64,000 nucleotides of DNA from a virus. A program made the position numbers and the translations under genes. Numbering within the stretch: position 1 is the stretch's first letter; each line of letters opens with the position of its first letter. This document shows positions 18,693 through 61,853 of this stretch, one piece after another. The notes beneath the pieces are model-generated. The model saw only the letters and a list, made by a program, of their open reading frames with translations. It was not told the DNA's origin and did no database searches. The DNA is taken from positions 20,710 through 84,709 of the IMG/VR virus record IMGVR_UViG_3300035183_000841. The stretch is one strand, 5' to 3'.

Positions 18693-18748
18693 TATTGACT
18701 TTTAGATACTCACACGACAAACTATGATTGCCAAGGAGGTGAACCAGG

Positions 18749-19288
18749 ATAGCAGTCACAATCAACAACATCATCGTGGGTGCGGGGAACCTCTTCATTT
18801 CCGCCAAGAACGTTGCGCTTGAGAGCCTGAGCGCCGCTGCCCGTGAGCCGTATCACGTCGGGGCAACGGTTGATGGCGTGGAGATCGCATATGAGCCGGA
18901 TTACACGGATATCGTCGTAGACCAACTGAAGGACGCCGCCATCATCTTCCAGAACGGTTTCCGGGTGACGGTTAGGACCCAGCTCGCCGAAGCGACCCTC
19001 GCGAACCTGAAGATGGCATGGGGCATGCCGGACTCTGCGCTTACGTCCAACAAGCTCAGCATCGGCGTTCCGCCGGACGAGCCAACAGAGAGGAAGCTCC
19101 TCGTCATAGGACGCAACCCGCAGGACTTCGAGCGGAGGTACTTCGCACGTCGAGCGGTAGCTGTAGACACATCATCGCACATGCTCAGACGGGCCGAAGC
19201 GACGCTGTTCCCCGTCGCCTTCCGCCTCCTCGGCGATCCTGCATACACCGGCTCCGAGTACGGGTACATAGAAGACGCAACCTCATAA
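18749..19288 (+). CDS. Major tail (tube) protein, apparent AUA start
   Basis: The 179-residue protein lies between the terminator-like gene and the tail chaperones, the position of the tail tube. It starts ATA GCA GTC ACA, read as MAVTINNIIVGAGNL, a typical tail-tube N-terminus. An AAGGAGGTGA ribosome site (18733-18742) ends 6 nt before the ATA. The next conventional start, GTG at 18776, would be 33 nt from that site and would cut nine residues from the first strand. Two stem-loops follow the stop. Tail tube is expected to be among the most abundant virion proteins. Confidence 0.75.
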   Translation: MAVTINNIIVGAGNLFISAKNVALESLSAAAREPYHVGATVDGVEIAYEPDYTDIVVDQLKDAAIIFQNGFRVTVRTQLAEATLANLKMAWGMPDSALTSNKLSIGVPPDEPTERKLLVIGRNPQDFERRYFARRAVAVDTSSHMLRRAEATLFPVAFRLLGDPAYTGSEYGYIEDATS

Positions 19289-19529: not shown

Positions 19530-19853
19530 ATGAGTAACAAAGATCATGTAGCAAGGATAGAGTCGGCTATCGAATTCGCCGACGGGAAGGTTCGAACGGT
19601 AAAACCACTCACAATCAAGTCTCTACGTAAGTTCGTCAAGGTTATCGAGGGCCTTAACGTCGGCCCTGATACGCCGATGACCGATGAGACGATCGACAAG
19701 ATGGTAGAAGCGGCTACGATAGCGCTGGAGCAGATTGACCCAGAGCTCGCCCGCGACAAAGAGGCGGTGGAGTCTGCCCTGGATATGGACGTTTTCCAGA
19801 AACTCATGACGGTGGCGATGGGTAATCGCCTGATGGACCCAAATCAAGGGTAG
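19530..19853 (+). CDS. Tail assembly chaperone (gpG-like)
   Basis: The 107-residue acidic helical protein precedes the tape measure gene and ends with a slippery site, as for lambda gpG-type chaperones. It binds and protects the tape measure protein before tube polymerisation. GAAGGAGG (19513-19520) is 9 nt from ATG 19530; an in-frame TTG at 19521 is disfavoured. A -1 frameshift near its end makes the longer GT form. Confidence 0.8.
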   Translation: MSNKDHVARIESAIEFADGKVRTVKPLTIKSLRKFVKVIEGLNVGPDTPMTDETIDKMVEAATIALEQIDPELARDKEAVESALDMDVFQKLMTVAMGNRLMDPNQG

Positions 19854-20167
19854 AGGGGGGAGGAACGAAGTTCGAGGACATCCCGCTAGCGAAGTTCGAA
19901 TCGGAGGTCTTCTGCGAGGTCGGGGCGTGGAAGAACTATGAAGAACTCGAGGAATATATGACCATGGATGAGCTTTTCCTGGCTTATGAAGCAGCTGCGG
20001 AACGCCAGAAGCGGCTCATGAAAGTCGTGGCTGCTGCACTTGGAGCGCCCTACGACGAAGGTAGTTCTTCTTCAGAGTCTTCCGGATACCCCCCGGGAAC
20101 GTTCGTTGATGACAAGGGCAACGTGGCACAACTATTCGGTTACAGGAAGGTGGACAAGATTGAATAG
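19530..20167 (+). CDS. Frameshifted tail chaperone (gpGT-like)
   Basis: Reading the G frame to CCA AAT at 19839-19844 and then slipping by -1 on CCCAAAT (19838-19844) gives a fused product of about 212 residues. The T frame is open from the slip site to 20167. It adds FEDIPLAKFESEVFCEVG and an acidic Ser-rich tail ending QLFGYRKVDKIE. No good independent start is seen for the T part; an in-frame ATG at 19958 would lose its first 38 residues. Location, order and frame direction match the conserved G-GT arrangement. Confidence 0.75.
19838..19844 (+). other. -1 ribosomal frameshift slippery site CCCAAAT
   Basis: The heptamer fits X XXY YYZ in the zero frame (C CCA AAT) and lies 6 nt before the G-frame stop (19851-19853). 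Pairing in both sites is preserved after a -1 slip (CCC AAA). No obvious strong pseudoknot is seen downstream, but a G-rich run follows at 19855-19863. Confidence 0.7.
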
Positions 20168-38016: not shown

Positions 38017-38037
38017 GACATCTCCTCTCGGGAGGGG

Positions 38038-38110
38038 TGGGGCGAGTGGGGATCGAACCCACGACCGTCGGATTAAAAGTCCGCTGCTCTGCCAACTGAG
38101 CTACCGCCCC
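38038..38110 (-). tRNA. tRNA-Lys (UUU)
   Basis: On the minus strand a full cloverleaf is seen: a GGGGCGG/TCGCCCC acceptor, D-arm GCTCAGTTGGCAGAGC, anticodon loop CTTTTAA (anticodon UUU), and T-arm GTGGGTTCGATCCCCAC. No encoded CCA follows. Confidence 0.95.
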
Positions 38111-38118
38111 CTCCATGC

Positions 38119-38195
38119 TGGTTGGGCGCCAGGGAATCGAACCCTGCTCCAGATGTTTATAAGACATCCGCCAGCTACCAGCTAGCATGCGCCCA
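38119..38195 (-). tRNA. tRNA-Ile (UAU), reads AUA, with encoded CCA
   Basis: On the minus strand the acceptor TGGGCGC/GCGCCCA, a four-pair D-stem, anticodon stem GATGT/ACATC with loop CTTATAA (anticodon UAU) and T-arm CAGGG-TTCGATT-CCCTG are complete. Discriminator A and CCA (38119-38121) are encoded. Most bacteria read AUA with a lysidine-modified CAU tRNA instead. Position 8 is A rather than U. Confidence 0.93.
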
Positions 38196-49277: not shown

Positions 49278-49450
49278 TAAAAACAGTTCCATACGTAGAG
49301 GCAGTGAAGATAAAGCCACCGATATGGACGAGTGACGAGAGGTGGTGCTCCTGTCTCGTATGCGGCCGATTCACCGGGATTGCGATGGTGAAGCTGTGCG
49401 GCCGGATAGATTGCCAGAACATCTATTGGGAGAAGGAATCAGATGAGTGA
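49274..49450 (+). CDS. 58-residue zinc-ribbon protein
   Basis: The ATG overlaps the deaminase stop (ATGA), and the gene ends 8 nt into the polymerase gene. The product has CSCLVCG and CGRIDC. The coupled arrangement supports it. The function is unknown. Confidence 0.6.
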   Translation: MIKTVPYVEAVKIKPPIWTSDERWCSCLVCGRFTGIAMVKLCGRIDCQNIYWEKESDE

Positions 49451-50732
49451 TTTCGTCCATCTGCACGTTCACACCATGGGGTCGTTGCTCGATGGCTTCG
49501 CAACGCCAGAAGAGGTCGCCGCACGTGCCAATACACTAGAACAGCCAGCAGTCGCCATCACGGATCATGGATCGTTGGCTTGCACTGTAAAGTTCTATGA
49601 GGAGTGCCGTAAAAACGGTGTCAAGCCGATCATAGGTGTCGAGGCGTATCTCGCCGATGACATGTCTTCGCGCAACAAAGAAGATGCCATCTACCATATC
49701 GGCTTTTTAGCGAAGAACAACGAGGGACTCCAGAAACTTTTTCGCATATCTGAGGCAGCATGGAACATTGGATTCTACAAGAAACCTCGTGTTGACTTGG
49801 ATTTCTTGTCATCACTCTCTTCAGGCAAAGAATCAGACTTGGTGGCTCTAACCGGATGCGTGGATGGCATTTTGAGTCGATCTCTTGCAGGAGATACGCC
49901 ATATACCCCACAGGATGTGATCGAGAAACTATCCTTATTCGAGCATCTATTCGTGGAGGTACAGCCGTGGAACCCCCCCGAATTGAACGAAGCATTACTT
50001 GCAGTAGCGGATTCTAATGGGCTGCAAGTAGTTGTTACGGCTGATGCACACTACGCTGACAAAGATGACAAGGTGGCTGCTGAGGTTGGGTTGCTCCTCT
50101 CTCAGGTGTCTTCTTTCAAGGATAGTGATAGGGAAAGAGCGATGGGGTTATTCACGGAGTCTCGCAGGTACGACCTTATGGAGAGGATAAACTTCTTGTG
50201 GCCCAATCGCAGGTTGCGGTTCGATAAATATGACAACTACCTGTTGTCTAGGACAGAGATCGAAAAATTCATGGTCGGTATGGGCATCGACAGGACGGAT
50301 ATCTACGACAATACCGTTGCGATAGCCGATCTCTGTGATGTTGAACTCGCCCTGGGCGGGAACAATCTGCCGCGATTCTCGAAGATGACCGACTCTGCTG
50401 AGTTCCTGAAAGAGGTTGCGTGGGAACGATTCGAGAAGTTGGGACTTGGTGAAGAATACGTGTCAAGGTTGGAAGATGAGCTGGACATCGTTATCAAATC
50501 CGGATTCGCAGACTATTTCTTAATCATCTGGGATATGGTGCATGCGAGTAAGACGAACGGCATCATGGTTGGGCCTGGACGCGGTTCTGTCGGCGGCTCA
50601 CTTCTCGCATATGTCCTAGGCATCACCGAGGTCGATCCTATAAAGTTCAATCTGATCTTCTGGAGGTTTCTGAATCTTGAAATCCAATATGACCCGAAAT
50701 TTAGAGAGATTAAGCTTTCTCGAACTGCTTGA
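49443..50732 (+). CDS. dnaE: DNA polymerase III alpha, N-terminal half (PHP and palm start)
   Basis: The 429-residue protein begins with the PHP domain (FVHLHVHTMGSLLDG; AITDHGSLACTVKFY; GVEAYLADD; VVVTADAHYADKDD) and continues to the palm glycine loop VGPGRGSVGGSLLAYVLGITEVDP. It stops after IFWRFLN plus about 18 unrelated residues. The catalytic aspartates of family C polymerases are not in this chain; they lie in the next ORF. Two chains must combine for activity, unless a -1 frameshift joins them. Confidence 0.88.
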   Translation: MSDFVHLHVHTMGSLLDGFATPEEVAARANTLEQPAVAITDHGSLACTVKFYEECRKNGVKPIIGVEAYLADDMSSRNKEDAIYHIGFLAKNNEGLQKLFRISEAAWNIGFYKKPRVDLDFLSSLSSGKESDLVALTGCVDGILSRSLAGDTPYTPQDVIEKLSLFEHLFVEVQPWNPPELNEALLAVADSNGLQVVVTADAHYADKDDKVAAEVGLLLSQVSSFKDSDRERAMGLFTESRRYDLMERINFLWPNRRLRFDKYDNYLLSRTEIEKFMVGMGIDRTDIYDNTVAIADLCDVELALGGNNLPRFSKMTDSAEFLKEVAWERFEKLGLGEEYVSRLEDELDIVIKSGFADYFLIIWDMVHASKTNGIMVGPGRGSVGGSLLAYVLGITEVDPIKFNLIFWRFLNLEIQYDPKFREIKLSRTA

Positions 50733-53043
50733 CCTGGTTAAGAAGTCAGAAAGAACGGTGCTTGACCCGAAATGGGTCGAGGATGAGTTGCTCGCAATAC
50801 GGGTTCTCGGCGGAGCAGAGGCGATGTTGCGATTGCTGCGGTCTGGGAAGAAATACACGAACGACTCAGGATCGTCCGTCGCTTATCTCATCGGGATAAC
50901 CGACTACGCACCGACCGGGCCAGCGGCGATTATCAACCAGGGGAGGGTCGAGCCTCCAGATATCGACCTAGACTTCGAAGATGCTAGACGTGATGAAGTT
51001 AAAGAATATCTCCGGCGTCGATGGAAGAACGTAACGAACATATCGGTATTTACGAAGTTCTCGTCGAGGAACCTCGTTAGGGATATCTCCAGGGCATTCG
51101 CCGTTCCGATTGATGATGTTAACAGGGTATGCAAGCAGTTCGAGGATATCGATACGTTCCTCTATTCTCACGATACGAAGTGGTTCAGAGATAAATACAG
51201 CGAGGTTGTCCATCTCGTTAAACGATTCGAGGGTAGATGGAGGCAGAGCGGCGTCCATGCAGCAGGAGTCGTGGTGGCCGGTAAAATGCTGACCGATATC
51301 CTGCCTTTGGAGTCTCGAGCCCAGCATGGACGTGAGCGAGTCCCTTGCGCTGCATACGATATGGAGGATTGCGCCAAGGTCGGTCTCATCAAGATGGATA
51401 TCCTCAGCTTGGAGATCCTTACCTGTATAAGGGAATGCCTCGACAAGATTAAGGAACGGCACGGCATAGAGGTAAACCTTCAGGACATACCTCTTGATGA
51501 CGAGACGGTGTTCAGGGAGCTATCGGAAGGTCATACCGTAGGAGTATTCCAAGCTGAAGCCGCCCCTCTTACGAAACTCATGAAAGAGATGGGCGTCGAC
51601 TCGTTCGCTGATATCGTTCTAGCGACTTCACTGGTAAGGCCAGGGGCACTCCTCACGGTGGGGGATTCGTGCATAAGGAGGAAGAAGGGGCTCGAGGAGA
51701 TTACCGAGATACACCCGATACTGACAGAGATCACGAAAGATACGTACAACCTCTTCATATTCCAGGAGCAACTCATAGAAGCACTCGTTAAGGTGGGCGG
51801 GTTCTCCTGGTCGGATGCAGATAAAGTTAGGAAGATCATCGGCAAGAAACAAGACCCAGAAGAATTCAAGAAATACGAAAAGAGGTGGCTTGAATCTGCC
51901 TCGAAGACACTCGGAAAGACTACATCTAAGAAACTATGGTCTGACTTTGAGAAGTTCTCAGGCTACGCCTTCAATAAAGCACATGCTACCGCATATTCGT
52001 TGATAACGTATCGCTGCATGTGGTTGAAAGCGCACTTCCCAGTGGAATATATGTATGCATTGTTCAAACATGAAACGAAGAGGGAAAAACTCACCACTTA
52101 TTACATGGAGGTGAAGCGTCTCGGAATAGAACTGTTGCCGCCAGACGTGAATAAGTCGGACACGTCCTTTTCCCTGGAAGGAGATTCCATACGTTATGGA
52201 CTGATGAACATCAAAGGGGTCGGCGCTGTCGCTGCAGAAGAGATCATCGCTAATCGACCTTATCAGTCTGTCGATGACTTCATCGCAAAGGTCGCCAGGA
52301 GGAAATGCACATCTGCAGTTGTCGCTCGTCTTCAAGAGGCTGGAGCGTTCTCGGAGATAGGGCATCCTGGTGATGAGCGTAAGGCGTATGAACTGCTCGG
52401 CATCGTAGACCTAGATGAGCTAGACATCCCCTTCGAAACCGTCGGTATCGGTGATATCGATGGGGCTGGGATTGTGAAAGCGATCGTCAAAGAAGTGAAG
52501 AAGTATTCGGACAACACCAGGATAACCATAGAAGATCAGTCTGGGTCGATGACGGTATATGTCGACTCCGGTGTCGTCGATGAGGATGCGGTCATCATCG
52601 GCTTGGTTTGCGGAAACAGGCTGGCCGGCTTCACTTATCTTGCTGACTACCAACAGAGGAAACGGGCCGGGCTGCCCCTCACTCCATTCGAACGGCTCTG
52701 TGAGGGAGATATCTTCTCAGAGGACGAGAAAGAGTTGTATAATCACGGTATCGGAAAACTCACCGACGCAAAGGCACTGGTCGCACCCCTGTCGGTGAGG
52801 ACATTCAAAACCAGGAAGGGTGAGTACATGGCCAGGGCCATAGTGACCGATGGGGAAAACGTAGAAGATATAGTGATATTTCCAAGCCAATACAAGAAGG
52901 TAGCCGCTTGGCTACAGCCGTATACGAAGATATGCATCAAGACAACCAGAACGGATAGCGGAGATCTCACCCTTGCCGATGATGGCCTCATCCTGGCCTC
53001 CAGGATTCTAGAGCTGAAGAGGGGGCAGGATGGGCGAACTTAG
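50677..53043 (+). CDS. dnaE: DNA polymerase III alpha, C-terminal half (catalytic palm, fingers, HhH, OB)
   Basis: The 788-residue protein carries the family C active site EPPDIDLDFEDARRDEVKEYL, HAAGVVVAG, the third acidic region KVGLIKMDILSLEIL, and then GVFQAEA, FQEQLIEALVKVGGFSWSDAD, YAFNKAHATAYSLITYRCMWLKA, a helix-hairpin-helix (IKGVGAVAAEEI) and a C-terminal OB fold. TTG at 50677, with TGGAGG 10 nt upstream, starts it inside the first half-gene. Its first 90 residues include SSVAYLIGITDYAP, which echoes LLAYVLGITEVDP of the first half. Confidence 0.9.
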   Translation: MKSNMTRNLERLSFLELLDLVKKSERTVLDPKWVEDELLAIRVLGGAEAMLRLLRSGKKYTNDSGSSVAYLIGITDYAPTGPAAIINQGRVEPPDIDLDFEDARRDEVKEYLRRRWKNVTNISVFTKFSSRNLVRDISRAFAVPIDDVNRVCKQFEDIDTFLYSHDTKWFRDKYSEVVHLVKRFEGRWRQSGVHAAGVVVAGKMLTDILPLESRAQHGRERVPCAAYDMEDCAKVGLIKMDILSLEILTCIRECLDKIKERHGIEVNLQDIPLDDETVFRELSEGHTVGVFQAEAAPLTKLMKEMGVDSFADIVLATSLVRPGALLTVGDSCIRRKKGLEEITEIHPILTEITKDTYNLFIFQEQLIEALVKVGGFSWSDADKVRKIIGKKQDPEEFKKYEKRWLESASKTLGKTTSKKLWSDFEKFSGYAFNKAHATAYSLITYRCMWLKAHFPVEYMYALFKHETKREKLTTYYMEVKRLGIELLPPDVNKSDTSFSLEGDSIRYGLMNIKGVGAVAAEEIIANRPYQSVDDFIAKVARRKCTSAVVARLQEAGAFSEIGHPGDERKAYELLGIVDLDELDIPFETVGIGDIDGAGIVKAIVKEVKKYSDNTRITIEDQSGSMTVYVDSGVVDEDAVIIGLVCGNRLAGFTYLADYQQRKRAGLPLTPFERLCEGDIFSEDEKELYNHGIGKLTDAKALVAPLSVRTFKTRKGEYMARAIVTDGENVEDIVIFPSQYKKVAAWLQPYTKICIKTTRTDSGDLTLADDGLILASRILELKRGQDGRT

Positions 53044-54960: not shown

Positions 54961-55734
54961 ATGTCGCTAGAAAGAATCCTAAAAAGGCACGATAAGAGAT
55001 TCGTAACCCATAAGTCAGACAAAGTCAGAACAGCTCCGCCAGGGGGTACGGCTGATAGCTTGAAGAAGTCGATCGACTCGTATCTGCTCGAGAGGAATGC
55101 TCCTGTCTTCAAGAAACTGAATGGGTTCCACCCTTCTTACAACCAGGTATGCCCAAGATGGTGGTATCTGATGTTCAAGGGGGTCGAAGTGACTCCCAAG
55201 ATTGATGCGAGGTTGTACCGGATCTTCGATAATGGCCATCTCATGCATGAGCGTATATGCGGTTACCTCAAAGAGATGGGGATATTGGTTGACAGGGAGA
55301 TACCGATAAAACTGGACACCCCTGTGCCGATAGTTGGGACTGCAGACGGGGTGATCGATTGGGACGGATATAAACTCATCGAGTTGAAAAGTATATCCCC
55401 AGAGGGTTTCCAGTTCAGGAAATACTACAACAAGCCCAAGCCCGAGCATAACGCACAAGCTCAGGTATATCTCCGAGCACTAAAGCTCGAGAATGGGTTC
55501 GTCATCTACGAATCGAAGGGGAGTCAGGAACTCCTGATATTCGAGATCGAGCGCGATGATTCTGAGTTCGAAAAAAGGGCTAAGGTTTGGTCTAAAGCGT
55601 ATGACTATATCCAGAGGGATGTCTTGCCTTCTCGGCCGTACAAACGGGATTCGTCTCATTGCTCAGCGTGCGATCTTGAGAAATACTGCTGGGAGGTGTT
55701 GCCAGATAGCGACCAGAAAGATAGTCATACGTGA
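54961..55734 (+). CDS. Cas4/RecB-like nuclease with Fe-S cysteines
   Basis: The 257-residue protein has a first Cys in YNQVCPRWWYL, then HERICGYL, GTADGVIDW (Asp), LIELKSI (E-x-K), a QxxxY motif (HNAQAQVYLRA) and CSACDLEKYC near the end. This is the Cas4/AddB-type 4Fe-4S PD-(D/E)XK exonuclease arrangement. It likely processes DNA ends in recombination with RecA. No CRISPR array is nearby. Confidence 0.85.
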   Translation: MSLERILKRHDKRFVTHKSDKVRTAPPGGTADSLKKSIDSYLLERNAPVFKKLNGFHPSYNQVCPRWWYLMFKGVEVTPKIDARLYRIFDNGHLMHERICGYLKEMGILVDREIPIKLDTPVPIVGTADGVIDWDGYKLIELKSISPEGFQFRKYYNKPKPEHNAQAQVYLRALKLENGFVIYESKGSQELLIFEIERDDSEFEKRAKVWSKAYDYIQRDVLPSRPYKRDSSHCSACDLEKYCWEVLPDSDQKDSHT

Positions 55735-55984
55735 TGAGATTATCACTTGCGCATTACCAGAGTGTGGAAAGAAGTTCAAGAAACGTTCACATAACAGCAA
55801 ATACTGTTCTCAGGAATGTTGTCGAGTTGCAACCAACAGGAAGATCCTGCAGAGATATCACGAGAACAAGAAACGCCCGAAACCTGGTCGGACATGCAAA
55901 ACCGATGGGTGCGGGACCATCCTATCTGTTTACAACAAAAGCGAGTACTGCTACAGATGCGCTGAGGATATAGGGTTGTTATGA
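55706..55984 (+). CDS. Zinc-finger protein with apparent AUA start
   Basis: The 92-residue protein reads MATRKIVIRDEIITCALPECGKKF from ATA at 55706 and contains three zinc-type clusters (CALPECGKKF...YCSQECC, CKTDGCG, YCYRC). GGGAGGTG (55691-55698) is well spaced for the ATA. No ATG, GTG or TTG occurs in frame between that site and the first cysteine; earlier starts would overlap the Cas4-like gene by up to 180 nt. The function is unknown; the HNH-like Cys spacing suggests nucleic acid binding. Confidence 0.65.
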   Translation: MATRKIVIRDEIITCALPECGKKFKKRSHNSKYCSQECCRVATNRKILQRYHENKKRPKPGRTCKTDGCGTILSVYNKSEYCYRCAEDIGLL

Positions 55985-56223
55985 GTGCTGAAGATGAGGT
56001 GGAGAAGATCTTAGCGATGCGGGTCTTCGTCCGCACCATCATGAGGATGCGCTTCGGGTCGCACTCCTTCCGTTTCGATGATTGGTGGTGCGATCTTTGC
56101 AAGATAACCATCGGTGCATCTTCGGTTAGGGGAGACAGCATGAAGTACTATAGGAAAGTGATATGCCACTACAAATACGTCCATAATGAGCAGTTCGCTT
56201 TGGCCCTCTTGGTGAACGCATGA
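55981..56223 (+). CDS. Hypothetical protein with CxxC motif
   Basis: The 80-residue protein has FDDWWCDLCKITIG and a C-terminal CHYKYVH, a possible C2CH zinc site. It overlaps both neighbours by 4 nt. The function is unknown. Confidence 0.6.
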   Translation: MSAEDEVEKILAMRVFVRTIMRMRFGSHSFRFDDWWCDLCKITIGASSVRGDSMKYYRKVICHYKYVHNEQFALALLVNA

Positions 56224-56792
56224 AGAAAGCGGTTCAATCAGTGGCGAAGAGGTACGACAGGGTCATCGGTATCGATGTCTCGACGAAACTCATAGCTGTT
56301 ACTGTAGTTGATCGTGGTGAACCACTTGCTCTCGTGTCCGTTGGTCTCCCACGGGGAGATATCAATTTGAGACTTTCATATGCCAGGAAATGGTTCTCGA
56401 TCGTCCTCGATGTGTATAAGCCTGGCGCTTGCTACATCGAGGCACCGATATTGGTACAGAACCCGCTCGCTACGAAGCATCTTGCCTACATGGTCGGCAT
56501 CCTCTTCGGTGAATGCCTCGAACGAGGCATAGAAACAGCAGACGTGCCCCCTATGGAGTGGAAAAGCCATATCGGGTATCGGGCTATATCGAAGCAAGAG
56601 CGTGAGAGGGTGCTGTCGGAATATGGAGAGACTGAGGGACGGAAGGAGTTGCGCAAGATCAGGAAAGCGCAGGTGCAGGAGAAACTGAAGGATAGGTATC
56701 CGATGTTCGCTAAACAGCTCGAATCGGACGACTTGGCCGATGCTCTAGGTATCGCATTGTACTGTTGGGAGAAACTAGGCAAACACAACTAG
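56220..56792 (+). CDS. RuvC-like Holliday junction resolvase
   Basis: The 190-residue protein has the RNase H-fold acidic set: VIGIDVSTKLIAVTVV (Asp19), CYIEAPILVQNP (Glu) and SDDLADALGIALYCWEKL (paired Asp). It should cut branched DNA before packaging. It starts in a 4-nt overlap and ends the recombination run. Confidence 0.85.
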   Translation: MKKAVQSVAKRYDRVIGIDVSTKLIAVTVVDRGEPLALVSVGLPRGDINLRLSYARKWFSIVLDVYKPGACYIEAPILVQNPLATKHLAYMVGILFGECLERGIETADVPPMEWKSHIGYRAISKQERERVLSEYGETEGRKELRKIRKAQVQEKLKDRYPMFAKQLESDDLADALGIALYCWEKLGKHN

Positions 56793-59031: not shown

Positions 59032-59598
59032 ATGGGTGCCAAATCTTCTCTCGATAAGATGAACGACTTCGAAAGGGCCGAGAAGGTCTACATGATCGCC
59101 AGGCTCTACATGCAGGGCAAACCGAAGGTGTCGATAGCAAAGGAACTTGATATCCCACTTAGCACCGTGGAGAAGGCCATCAAAGAGTGGGATGAATACA
59201 TATCGATGCGCGCAGAAGCCGACCCCGACATCATGGAGAAGTTCACCGAGAACGTCTTCAGGTTCGATGAAGAGATAAGGATGATCAATGAGCAGGCATG
59301 GGAAGTCGTGAGGTTGGCCGAAGAGAATGGCGCCATGTCAACGAAACTACAGGCTCTTCGTTTGGCGAAAGACCTCATGGAGACCAAGGCTCGGCTCTTC
59401 CAGCTTATGTCCCCGCGACTCGAATCCGGGTACATCGAGCGGACCAAGAAAGTTGAGCGCGTTAACTCAATTTTGTCGGAGATAATCAGGACTACCATAA
59501 GTAACTGCCCCAGATGCTCTGACCTCGCTTGGTCGCAGTTGCAGGATGCCTGGCGTAACCAACCAGAGCTTAGTGATGGAGAAACGCTAGACAGATGA
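59032..59598 (+). CDS. terS: Terminase small subunit
   Basis: The 188-residue protein has an N-terminal HTH (YMQGKPKVSIAKELDIPLSTVEKAIKEW), a central helical oligomerisation region and a C-terminal tail with CPRC. It lies immediately before the large terminase, overlapping its start by 4 nt. It should recognise the packaging site and stimulate the large subunit. Confidence 0.82.
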   Translation: MGAKSSLDKMNDFERAEKVYMIARLYMQGKPKVSIAKELDIPLSTVEKAIKEWDEYISMRAEADPDIMEKFTENVFRFDEEIRMINEQAWEVVRLAEENGAMSTKLQALRLAKDLMETKARLFQLMSPRLESGYIERTKKVERVNSILSEIIRTTISNCPRCSDLAWSQLQDAWRNQPELSDGETLDR

Positions 59599-61853
59599 CC
59601 ATGCGTAGATTCGGCGGGAACATAACGCTTGAAGACTTCAGGTCTTTGCTCCAGAAGGAGGAGTTCGAGGAAGAGCCGGTCGATCTGCATAGGTTCGTGA
59701 CGGACCCGTATTTTTTAGGGCTTAAACCACTGTCTCCTGTACAGGAGCAGATCGCGTCGAAGATGACCCAGATCTTCCTCCCCCACACACTAGAGAAGAT
59801 GCATGGGAAGAAGGAAGCGCAACAGATCTGGGAGTCCACGGTAAATGAGGTTATATGTCAGATCGGCAAAGGTGGGGGGAAAGATTGGTGCTTCGCGTAT
59901 GAAACCGAAATAATCACCAAAGACGGGATAAGGAAGATCGGGGATGTGGCGAACACCGTTCAGACGCTGCTGACTTCGCAGGGATGGAAAGAAGCTAAGG
60001 TCCTCGAGACGAGTGTGCTTCCGATATGGAAGTTGGTTGTGAAACGGGGCGACGAAACGAAAGAGATCCACACGACCAGATATCACAGATGGTTTGCGAC
60101 TAAGACCTTAGATAGGGCCAAGAGGAAGTTCGAAGAGACTTACACTTGCGACTTGGTGCCGGGTAGTTGGTTACAGGTTAACTATGAGCATCGCGATATC
60201 CATCCTGGCCCAGAGGCTCACTGGAAGGTGGTATCGGTCGAGGAAACGGATAGGGTTGAACAAACATATTGCCCGGACGTTCCAGAGATACATAACTTCA
60301 CCTTAGAGGGCAATATATTGACCGGCAATACCCTTCGTATAGCGTTCGCCAGGATCATCTATCTGATGCATTGCTTAAGGGACCCACTTGACTATTACGG
60401 TATCGGTCATGGGGAGTACATCGACCTCCTGAACATCGCTCTGAACTCCGAGCAGGCACAACGGGTATTCTTCGACCCATTGAAGAACTTGCTCATCGCC
60501 AGCCCGTATTTCCAGAAGAAGGGGTTCATCCCGATGAGCAAGAAGATCGAGTTCATGGAGCGACCCATCAGGTGTTTCTCTGGCCACTCTGAGGCTGAGG
60601 GGTGGGAGGGGTATAACCTGATTGCGGTTACGTTGGACGAGATCTCCGCATTCAAAACTCAGGATGACTCTTCCCACACCCAAGAATCCGTGAAGTTTTC
60701 TGCTAAGGCCATCTACGACATGGCGAGGCTGTCGGTCATCTCGCGTTTCCCCCAGGTCGGAAAGGTTGCGCTGCTTTCGTTCCCGAGGTATGAGAACGAC
60801 TTCATCCAGCAACGGTACGATGGGGTGATAGAGAGGAAGATCACGAGGAAGGTGACGAAGGATCTCGGCCCGATAACGGTATGGTGGGAAGATGATGAGA
60901 TCCTCGAGTATCGAGAACCGAGGGTATGGGCTATAAAGTGCCCCACTTTCGTATCCAATCCCACCAAGAAACCAGAAGATTTCACCTCCGACTTCATACG
61001 TGACCCGGTGAATGCGAACGCACGCATCCTTTGCCGGCCACCGAAGATGGCGGAAGCGTATTTCCGCGATCCATATAGGGTCATGGCCTGCTTCCATAAA
61101 CACGATGAATCTTGTACGGATAAGTATTGCGTTCGGTCGCCGTTCGACGAGGAAGGGCGTCTGCCTCCTATGTTCCGGGATAAAGATGACAGCGCAGCAC
61201 CGAGGTTCATCCATATCGACCTCGGCCTTAACCGCGACAGGTCTGCGCTGTGTATGGTTCACTGTGAAGGATTCATGAAAAGTGAAACGGATGGGCAGAT
61301 AATGCCTGTGATACGGATGGACCTCATCAAGTATTGGGAAGCCCCTCCGAACGGCGAGATAGACTTCAATGACGTTCGCAGATTCGTGTTCATGCTGAAC
61401 GACAGGTTCAATGTGGCGATGGTGACGATGGACAGGTGGCAGAGCGTCGATACGAAGAACATCTTCATGAACAAAGGCATCTACACGGAGTTCATGGTGG
61501 TGAAGAAAGACCACTACGATACGCTTTCCACCTCCATCTATGATGGGCGTCTTCGTGCGTATTACCATCCCATCCTCGTCGATCAGGAACTCCTGAAGTT
61601 GCAGCTCATCAGGGGGAACAAGGTCGATCACCCAAGGAAGGGGTTCAAGGACGGAGCCGACTCCTTAGCTGGCGCTGTATATACCTGCACTGTGAATACT
61701 CCGGTCGAGGAGGTCATCGATATCGACATCCTCGGTACTACGCAATCTGTCAAACGCGACGAAGAGGAGAAGGAGAAGCGAGAGGAACACGTCCAGGAGA
61801 AAGAGATGCCGGATGACATAGAAGAGTATCTCGGCGGGATGGGGTTAATCTGA
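59595..61853 (+). CDS. terL: Terminase large subunit with mini-intein
   Basis: The 752-residue frame (605 after splicing) has an ATPase domain whose Walker A, QIGKGGGKDW-TLRIAFA, is split by the intein, then Walker B LIAVTLDEISAF and the coupling motif. The C-terminal RNase H-like nuclease has IHIDLGLNRDRSAL, VTMDRWQS and FKDGADSLAGAV acidic residues. It translocates DNA into the prohead through the portal and cuts concatemers. The C-terminus is a charged helix. A large minus-strand ORF across it is a shadow. Confidence 0.93.
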   Translation: MTMRRFGGNITLEDFRSLLQKEEFEEEPVDLHRFVTDPYFLGLKPLSPVQEQIASKMTQIFLPHTLEKMHGKKEAQQIWESTVNEVICQIGKGGGKDWCFAYETEIITKDGIRKIGDVANTVQTLLTSQGWKEAKVLETSVLPIWKLVVKRGDETKEIHTTRYHRWFATKTLDRAKRKFEETYTCDLVPGSWLQVNYEHRDIHPGPEAHWKVVSVEETDRVEQTYCPDVPEIHNFTLEGNILTGNTLRIAFARIIYLMHCLRDPLDYYGIGHGEYIDLLNIALNSEQAQRVFFDPLKNLLIASPYFQKKGFIPMSKKIEFMERPIRCFSGHSEAEGWEGYNLIAVTLDEISAFKTQDDSSHTQESVKFSAKAIYDMARLSVISRFPQVGKVALLSFPRYENDFIQQRYDGVIERKITRKVTKDLGPITVWWEDDEILEYREPRVWAIKCPTFVSNPTKKPEDFTSDFIRDPVNANARILCRPPKMAEAYFRDPYRVMACFHKHDESCTDKYCVRSPFDEEGRLPPMFRDKDDSAAPRFIHIDLGLNRDRSALCMVHCEGFMKSETDGQIMPVIRMDLIKYWEAPPNGEIDFNDVRRFVFMLNDRFNVAMVTMDRWQSVDTKNIFMNKGIYTEFMVVKKDHYDTLSTSIYDGRLRAYYHPILVDQELLKLQLIRGNKVDHPRKGFKDGADSLAGAVYTCTVNTPVEEVIDIDILGTTQSVKRDEEEKEKREEHVQEKEMPDDIEEYLGGMGLI
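59889..60329 (+). other. Mini-intein in the terminase P-loop
   Basis: A 147-residue insertion begins CFAYETEIITKDG (block A) and ends PEIHNFTLEGNILTGN before +1 Thr of TLRIAF. No endonuclease blocks are present. The penultimate residue is Gly instead of the usual His. It sits directly after GKGGGKDW, so the ATP site is absent until splicing. Confidence 0.92.

Follow-up and report, generated by a model that had tools for sequence, protein, structure and literature searches.

The infC gene of Escherichia coli begins with AUU, a near-cognate start codon that holds expression low and is autoregulated through IF3. In Staphylococcus aureus, infC, ccpN and citZ have AUA starts with extended Shine-Dalgarno (SD) sequences that were verified by initiation profiling and reporters, and the AUA reporters tested gave about 10–30% of AUG expression (PMC13009471). 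For E. coli, a value of at most about 1% of AUG is quoted for an AUA start (PMC12864459, citing Hecht 2017), and an rpoS mutant in which ATG was changed to ATA kept about one fifth of its protein (PMC12864459). No example of a phage AUA start was found in the literature, as covered by open-licence papers; the zinc-finger gene described here would add a phage example to an arrangement, AUA with an extended SD, that is already known in Staphylococcus.

The window, i.e., the whole stretch of 64,000 nucleotides analyzed, comes from a virus record of 84.7 kb (G000) and belongs to a tailed phage that is a relative of the actinobacterial Stanwilliamsviridae. Three genes on the plus strand form a block: a cas4-like nuclease gene (54961–55734; PHROG 1706, E = 8.6e-35, with Pfam Cas_Cas4 and PDDEXK_1 just under cut-off), the zinc-finger gene (55706–55984; 92 codons plus stop from the proposed AUA) and a gene for a RuvC-like resolvase (56220–56792; PHROG 159, E = 1.3e-20). 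In Streptomyces phages of the Stanwilliamsviridae the same three families follow one another in this order; in contrast to the window, however, the zinc-finger gene of these phages has a TTG or GTG start that coincides with the Cas4 stop or lies near it, and no N-terminal extension. In the window, the last 29 nt of the cas4-like gene (55706–55734) are shared with the zinc-finger gene, in another frame. We propose that the zinc-finger gene very probably starts at the AUA at 55706, aided by an extended SD. Like S. aureus ccpN, infC and citZ, the gene would combine an AUA start with an SD of unusual length and suitable spacing, but unlike these profiled bacterial genes it belongs to a phage, has its proposed start inside the upstream gene and is described here by sequence comparison. 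It would resemble E. coli infC in that a near-cognate start holds expression low, although the codon is AUA and not AUU, and no IF3 loop is indicated for the zinc-finger gene.

The frame is open from ATA 55706–55708 as far as TGA 55982–55984. ATA GCG ACC AGA AAG at 55706 reads I/M-ATRKIVIRDEIITC..., and the predicted product is M-ATRKIVIRDEIITCALPEC..., in which the cysteine pattern suggests two zinc-binding knuckles. A profile search matched PHROG 10853, a zinc-finger family, to residues 14–86, the cysteine region (E = 2.7e-18). The protein had no match in a Pfam search and matched no solved structure, nothing was found in phage records searched at the DNA level, and scans of genome contigs gave no host or prophage relatives. 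The ATA and the SD are kept in three further contigs: L002, whose DNA is 99.99% identical to the window and which is probably the same phage, and L003 and L004, which have diverged by 5%. The codon after the ATA is GTG in L003, and the alanine is not conserved there (Val).

Homologous cas4/zinc-finger pairs occur in two layouts. In type I (56 contexts, those of the Streptomyces phages and of most relatives sampled), the start of the zinc-finger gene precedes the first cysteine by 1–4 codons and falls at the Cas4 stop or close to it. Type II comprises 44 distinct contexts, in which the zinc-finger gene begins within the 3' end of cas4 and has the same frame relation as in the window. The type I homologues at first sight speak against the ATA, but the closest Cas4 relatives show the type II layout, and in a Cas4 tree the window clade falls within the type II side (100/100), its sister being a 114.9-kb contig (G001/L184). 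As anchor for start offsets we used the tryptophan codon of the conserved CW motif in Cas4 (TGG 55690–55692, plus strand), and type II contexts with the first cysteine at least 37 nt after this TGG were classed as having a long N-terminus, which gave 17 contexts besides the window. A canonical start lies exactly 13 nt after the tryptophan codon in 11 of these 17 (TTG in 8, ATG in 2 and GTG in 1), and the ATA of the window stands at the same offset, a match in distance count, gapped DNA alignment of the stretch being ambiguous by ~3 nt (about one codon). Type II pairs in IMG/VR such as L226, L236, L256 and L257 share with the window the start 13 nt after the CW codon, the frame relation and the N-terminal extension, but differ in having a TTG or GTG start and a weaker SD. 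The GTG of L003 is at offset 16, like a TTG in L246 and L252; because L003 groups with L004, the GTG is most simply a derived change, although that branch is short. With GTG as the next codon, AUA may therefore not be the start in L003. In the sister phage, AGGAGGTTAATGATTTAA (L184:3751–3790) stands just before the zinc-finger frame and contains an SD with ATG-ATT-stop in that frame, followed by TTG TTG; ATG-ATT-stop is possibly a minigene with reinitiation.

A start equivalent to that of type I would lie at AUU 55739 (or AUC 55742) and would be reached by termination-reinitiation at the Cas4 stop (55732–55734). AUU is a known rare start codon, and just this place is where type I relatives have their NTG starts, which overlap the Cas4 stop or lie near it. 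The window is, however, type II by both frame and Cas4 tree, the SD energy at 55739 is only −2.4, the codon varies between ATT and ATC, and the better reinitiation sites, GTG 55731 and ATG 55734, are out of frame. Furthermore, some type II relatives have residues that correspond to the D-E just before the AUU, although this is suggestive only. Taken with these points, initiation at 55739 is unlikely. The overlap of the cas4 and zinc-finger frames could also be read as a Cas4–zinc-finger fusion produced by programmed frameshifting, for which a start codon would be unneeded, and in the tail assembly chaperone gene of the same genome the downstream frame does lack a start, with a C CCA AAT heptamer at 19838–19844. 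This fusion is nevertheless highly improbable: it needs a +1 shift, inspection of 55690–55734 revealed no known +1 slippery motif, and ordinary start codons are present there in every type II relative that is not of the window clade.

Substitution patterns in the zinc-finger frame provide a further view of where the gene begins. Changes at codon position 3 account for 11 of 13 substitutions relative to L003 and 9 of 11 relative to L004. Upstream of the ATA in the same frame, L003 has 2 codons changed synonymously and 6 nonsynonymously, compared with 11 and 2 downstream (Fisher p = 0.018), and in L004 three of the four changed codons upstream are nonsynonymous (p = 0.08 for the upstream–downstream contrast). 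Given the nonsynonymous excess upstream and the third-position changes downstream, coding constraint therefore begins near the ATA, and the comparison identifies the zinc-finger gene as a real gene, under purifying selection downstream of the ATA but not upstream. That the gene is unexpressed, or the ATA a recent defect, is scarcely credible, since the same ATA occurs in contigs of other metagenomes and purifying selection has acted after divergence. A start at TTG 55676, the nearest canonical codon upstream in frame, or farther upstream, would be permitted by a frame that is open upstream to 55538. The TTG precedes the SD, however, no SD was seen by inspection for such a start, zinc-finger-frame constraint is absent upstream of the ATA and in type II relatives the start follows the CW codon, all of which make an upstream start very unlikely. 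Hence the AUA start put forward in the original prediction is supported by the offset of 13 in type II relatives, by the Cas4 tree and by selection from near the ATA.

The extended SD GGGAGGUG (55691–55698, plus strand) overlaps the Cas4 codons W-E-V, for which its letters double. The spacing to the ATA is 7 nt from GGGAGGTG at 55691–55698 and 9 nt when counted from GGGAGG, which is the distance originally claimed and lies within the 3–11 nt range of other genes in the genome. With a duplex energy of −13.6 kcal/mol, this SD is the strongest in the type II set, the starts of the type II relatives ranging from −2.4 to −9.5. An energy of −13.6 or lower is found before 13 of 21,795 internal codons of the genome (0.06%; ~0.0006 per codon) and before none of its 382 internal ATA codons; the SD-ATA arrangement at 55706 exceeds chance. 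The motif alone is weaker evidence than the pairing energy and is not rare enough to decide: GGAGGTG is present 23 times on the plus strand, roughly nine of these inside genes with no evident start. No special unpairedness is predicted for the SD of the zinc-finger gene, and accessibility is uninformative. Frame inspection confirmed the earlier statement that there is no ATG, GTG or TTG in frame from the SD to the first zinc cysteine, the nearest canonical codon downstream being codon 90, and the zinc-finger gene showed no competing start preceded by an SD.

We infer the following course of initiation at AUA 55706. Ribosomes would bind the extended SD, embedded in the last cas4 codons, and this long SD would hold the 30S subunit such that initiator fMet-tRNA accepts the near-cognate AUA, yielding fMet-ATRKIVIRDEIITC... 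The weakness of the start codon is probably offset by the strong SD, with the result that the zinc-finger protein would be made at a low level that is set mainly at initiation. A phage-encoded initiator tRNA reading AUA was considered and rejected. The features sought were a mismatch at 1–72 and three G-C pairs in the anticodon stem, but the phage tRNA-Ile (anticodon UAU; 38119–38195, minus strand) pairs U1 with A72 and has the anticodon stem GAUGU/ACAUC, features by which it is classed as an ordinary elongator. A tRNA-Lys(UUU) is encoded at 38036–38110 (minus strand). AUA is used at 17 per 1000 codons and ATT at only 5.

The original prediction further held that two AUA genes with strong ribosome sites argue against chance. 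The companion, the first AUA-Ala gene of that prediction, encodes the major tail protein (18749–19288, plus strand) and is preceded by the SD AAGGAGGTGA (18733–18742, plus strand; −14.1 kcal/mol). The ATA of this gene falls on Met1 of the homologous tail protein of well over 100 phages. Most of the matches, to phages of Streptomyces, Rhodococcus and others, have residue 1 as their first position, which is also where the annotated CDS begins in each of the three Streptomyces phages inspected. An SD of the GAGGTGA type is kept in most relatives of the tail gene, and the starts in 54 IMG/VR homologues are ATG in 52, TTG in one (the sister contig) and ATA in one (the window clade). The alignment of this ATA with Met1 supports the companion gene independently. 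The genome scan for SD-ATA openings that had been proposed as a check gave only two convincing cases among the called genes, 18749 and 55706. A third apparent site, L097:1673, is an artefact with an out-of-frame ATG after the same SD, and ATA 18162 was rejected as a start on account of its too short spacing and a downstream ATG. The start-less frame 19826–20167 was likewise set aside, a −1 frameshift being the likely explanation of that frame. In this tail assembly chaperone pair (19530–20167), the heptamer is situated in the first frame just before TAG and the second frame has no canonical start near the overlap, a pattern that makes a −1 programmed frameshift likely.

It is conceivable, though doubtful, that this phage lineage joins AUA starts to near-perfect SDs in particular genes, those of the major tail protein and the zinc-finger protein, as a translational throttle that answers infection-specific changes in initiation, for example in the level of IF3. 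Gene finders restricted to ATG, GTG and TTG miss AUA starts, so both the zinc-finger and the tail gene would be mis-started by them. A tail protein gene and a replication-block gene that would each use AUA with a near-perfect SD would offer natural phage test cases for SD rescue of, or regulation through, a near-cognate start, and the comparison of start offsets across overlapping gene pairs is a general way to recognize such starts.

The terminase large subunit frame (59595–61853) has an apparent intein-like insert (CFAYETEI... to ...HNFTLEGNILTGN), and a DNA polymerase III alpha-like protein appears to be split in two overlapping frames, 49443–50732 and 50677–53043, near the catalytic PDIDLDFED motif.
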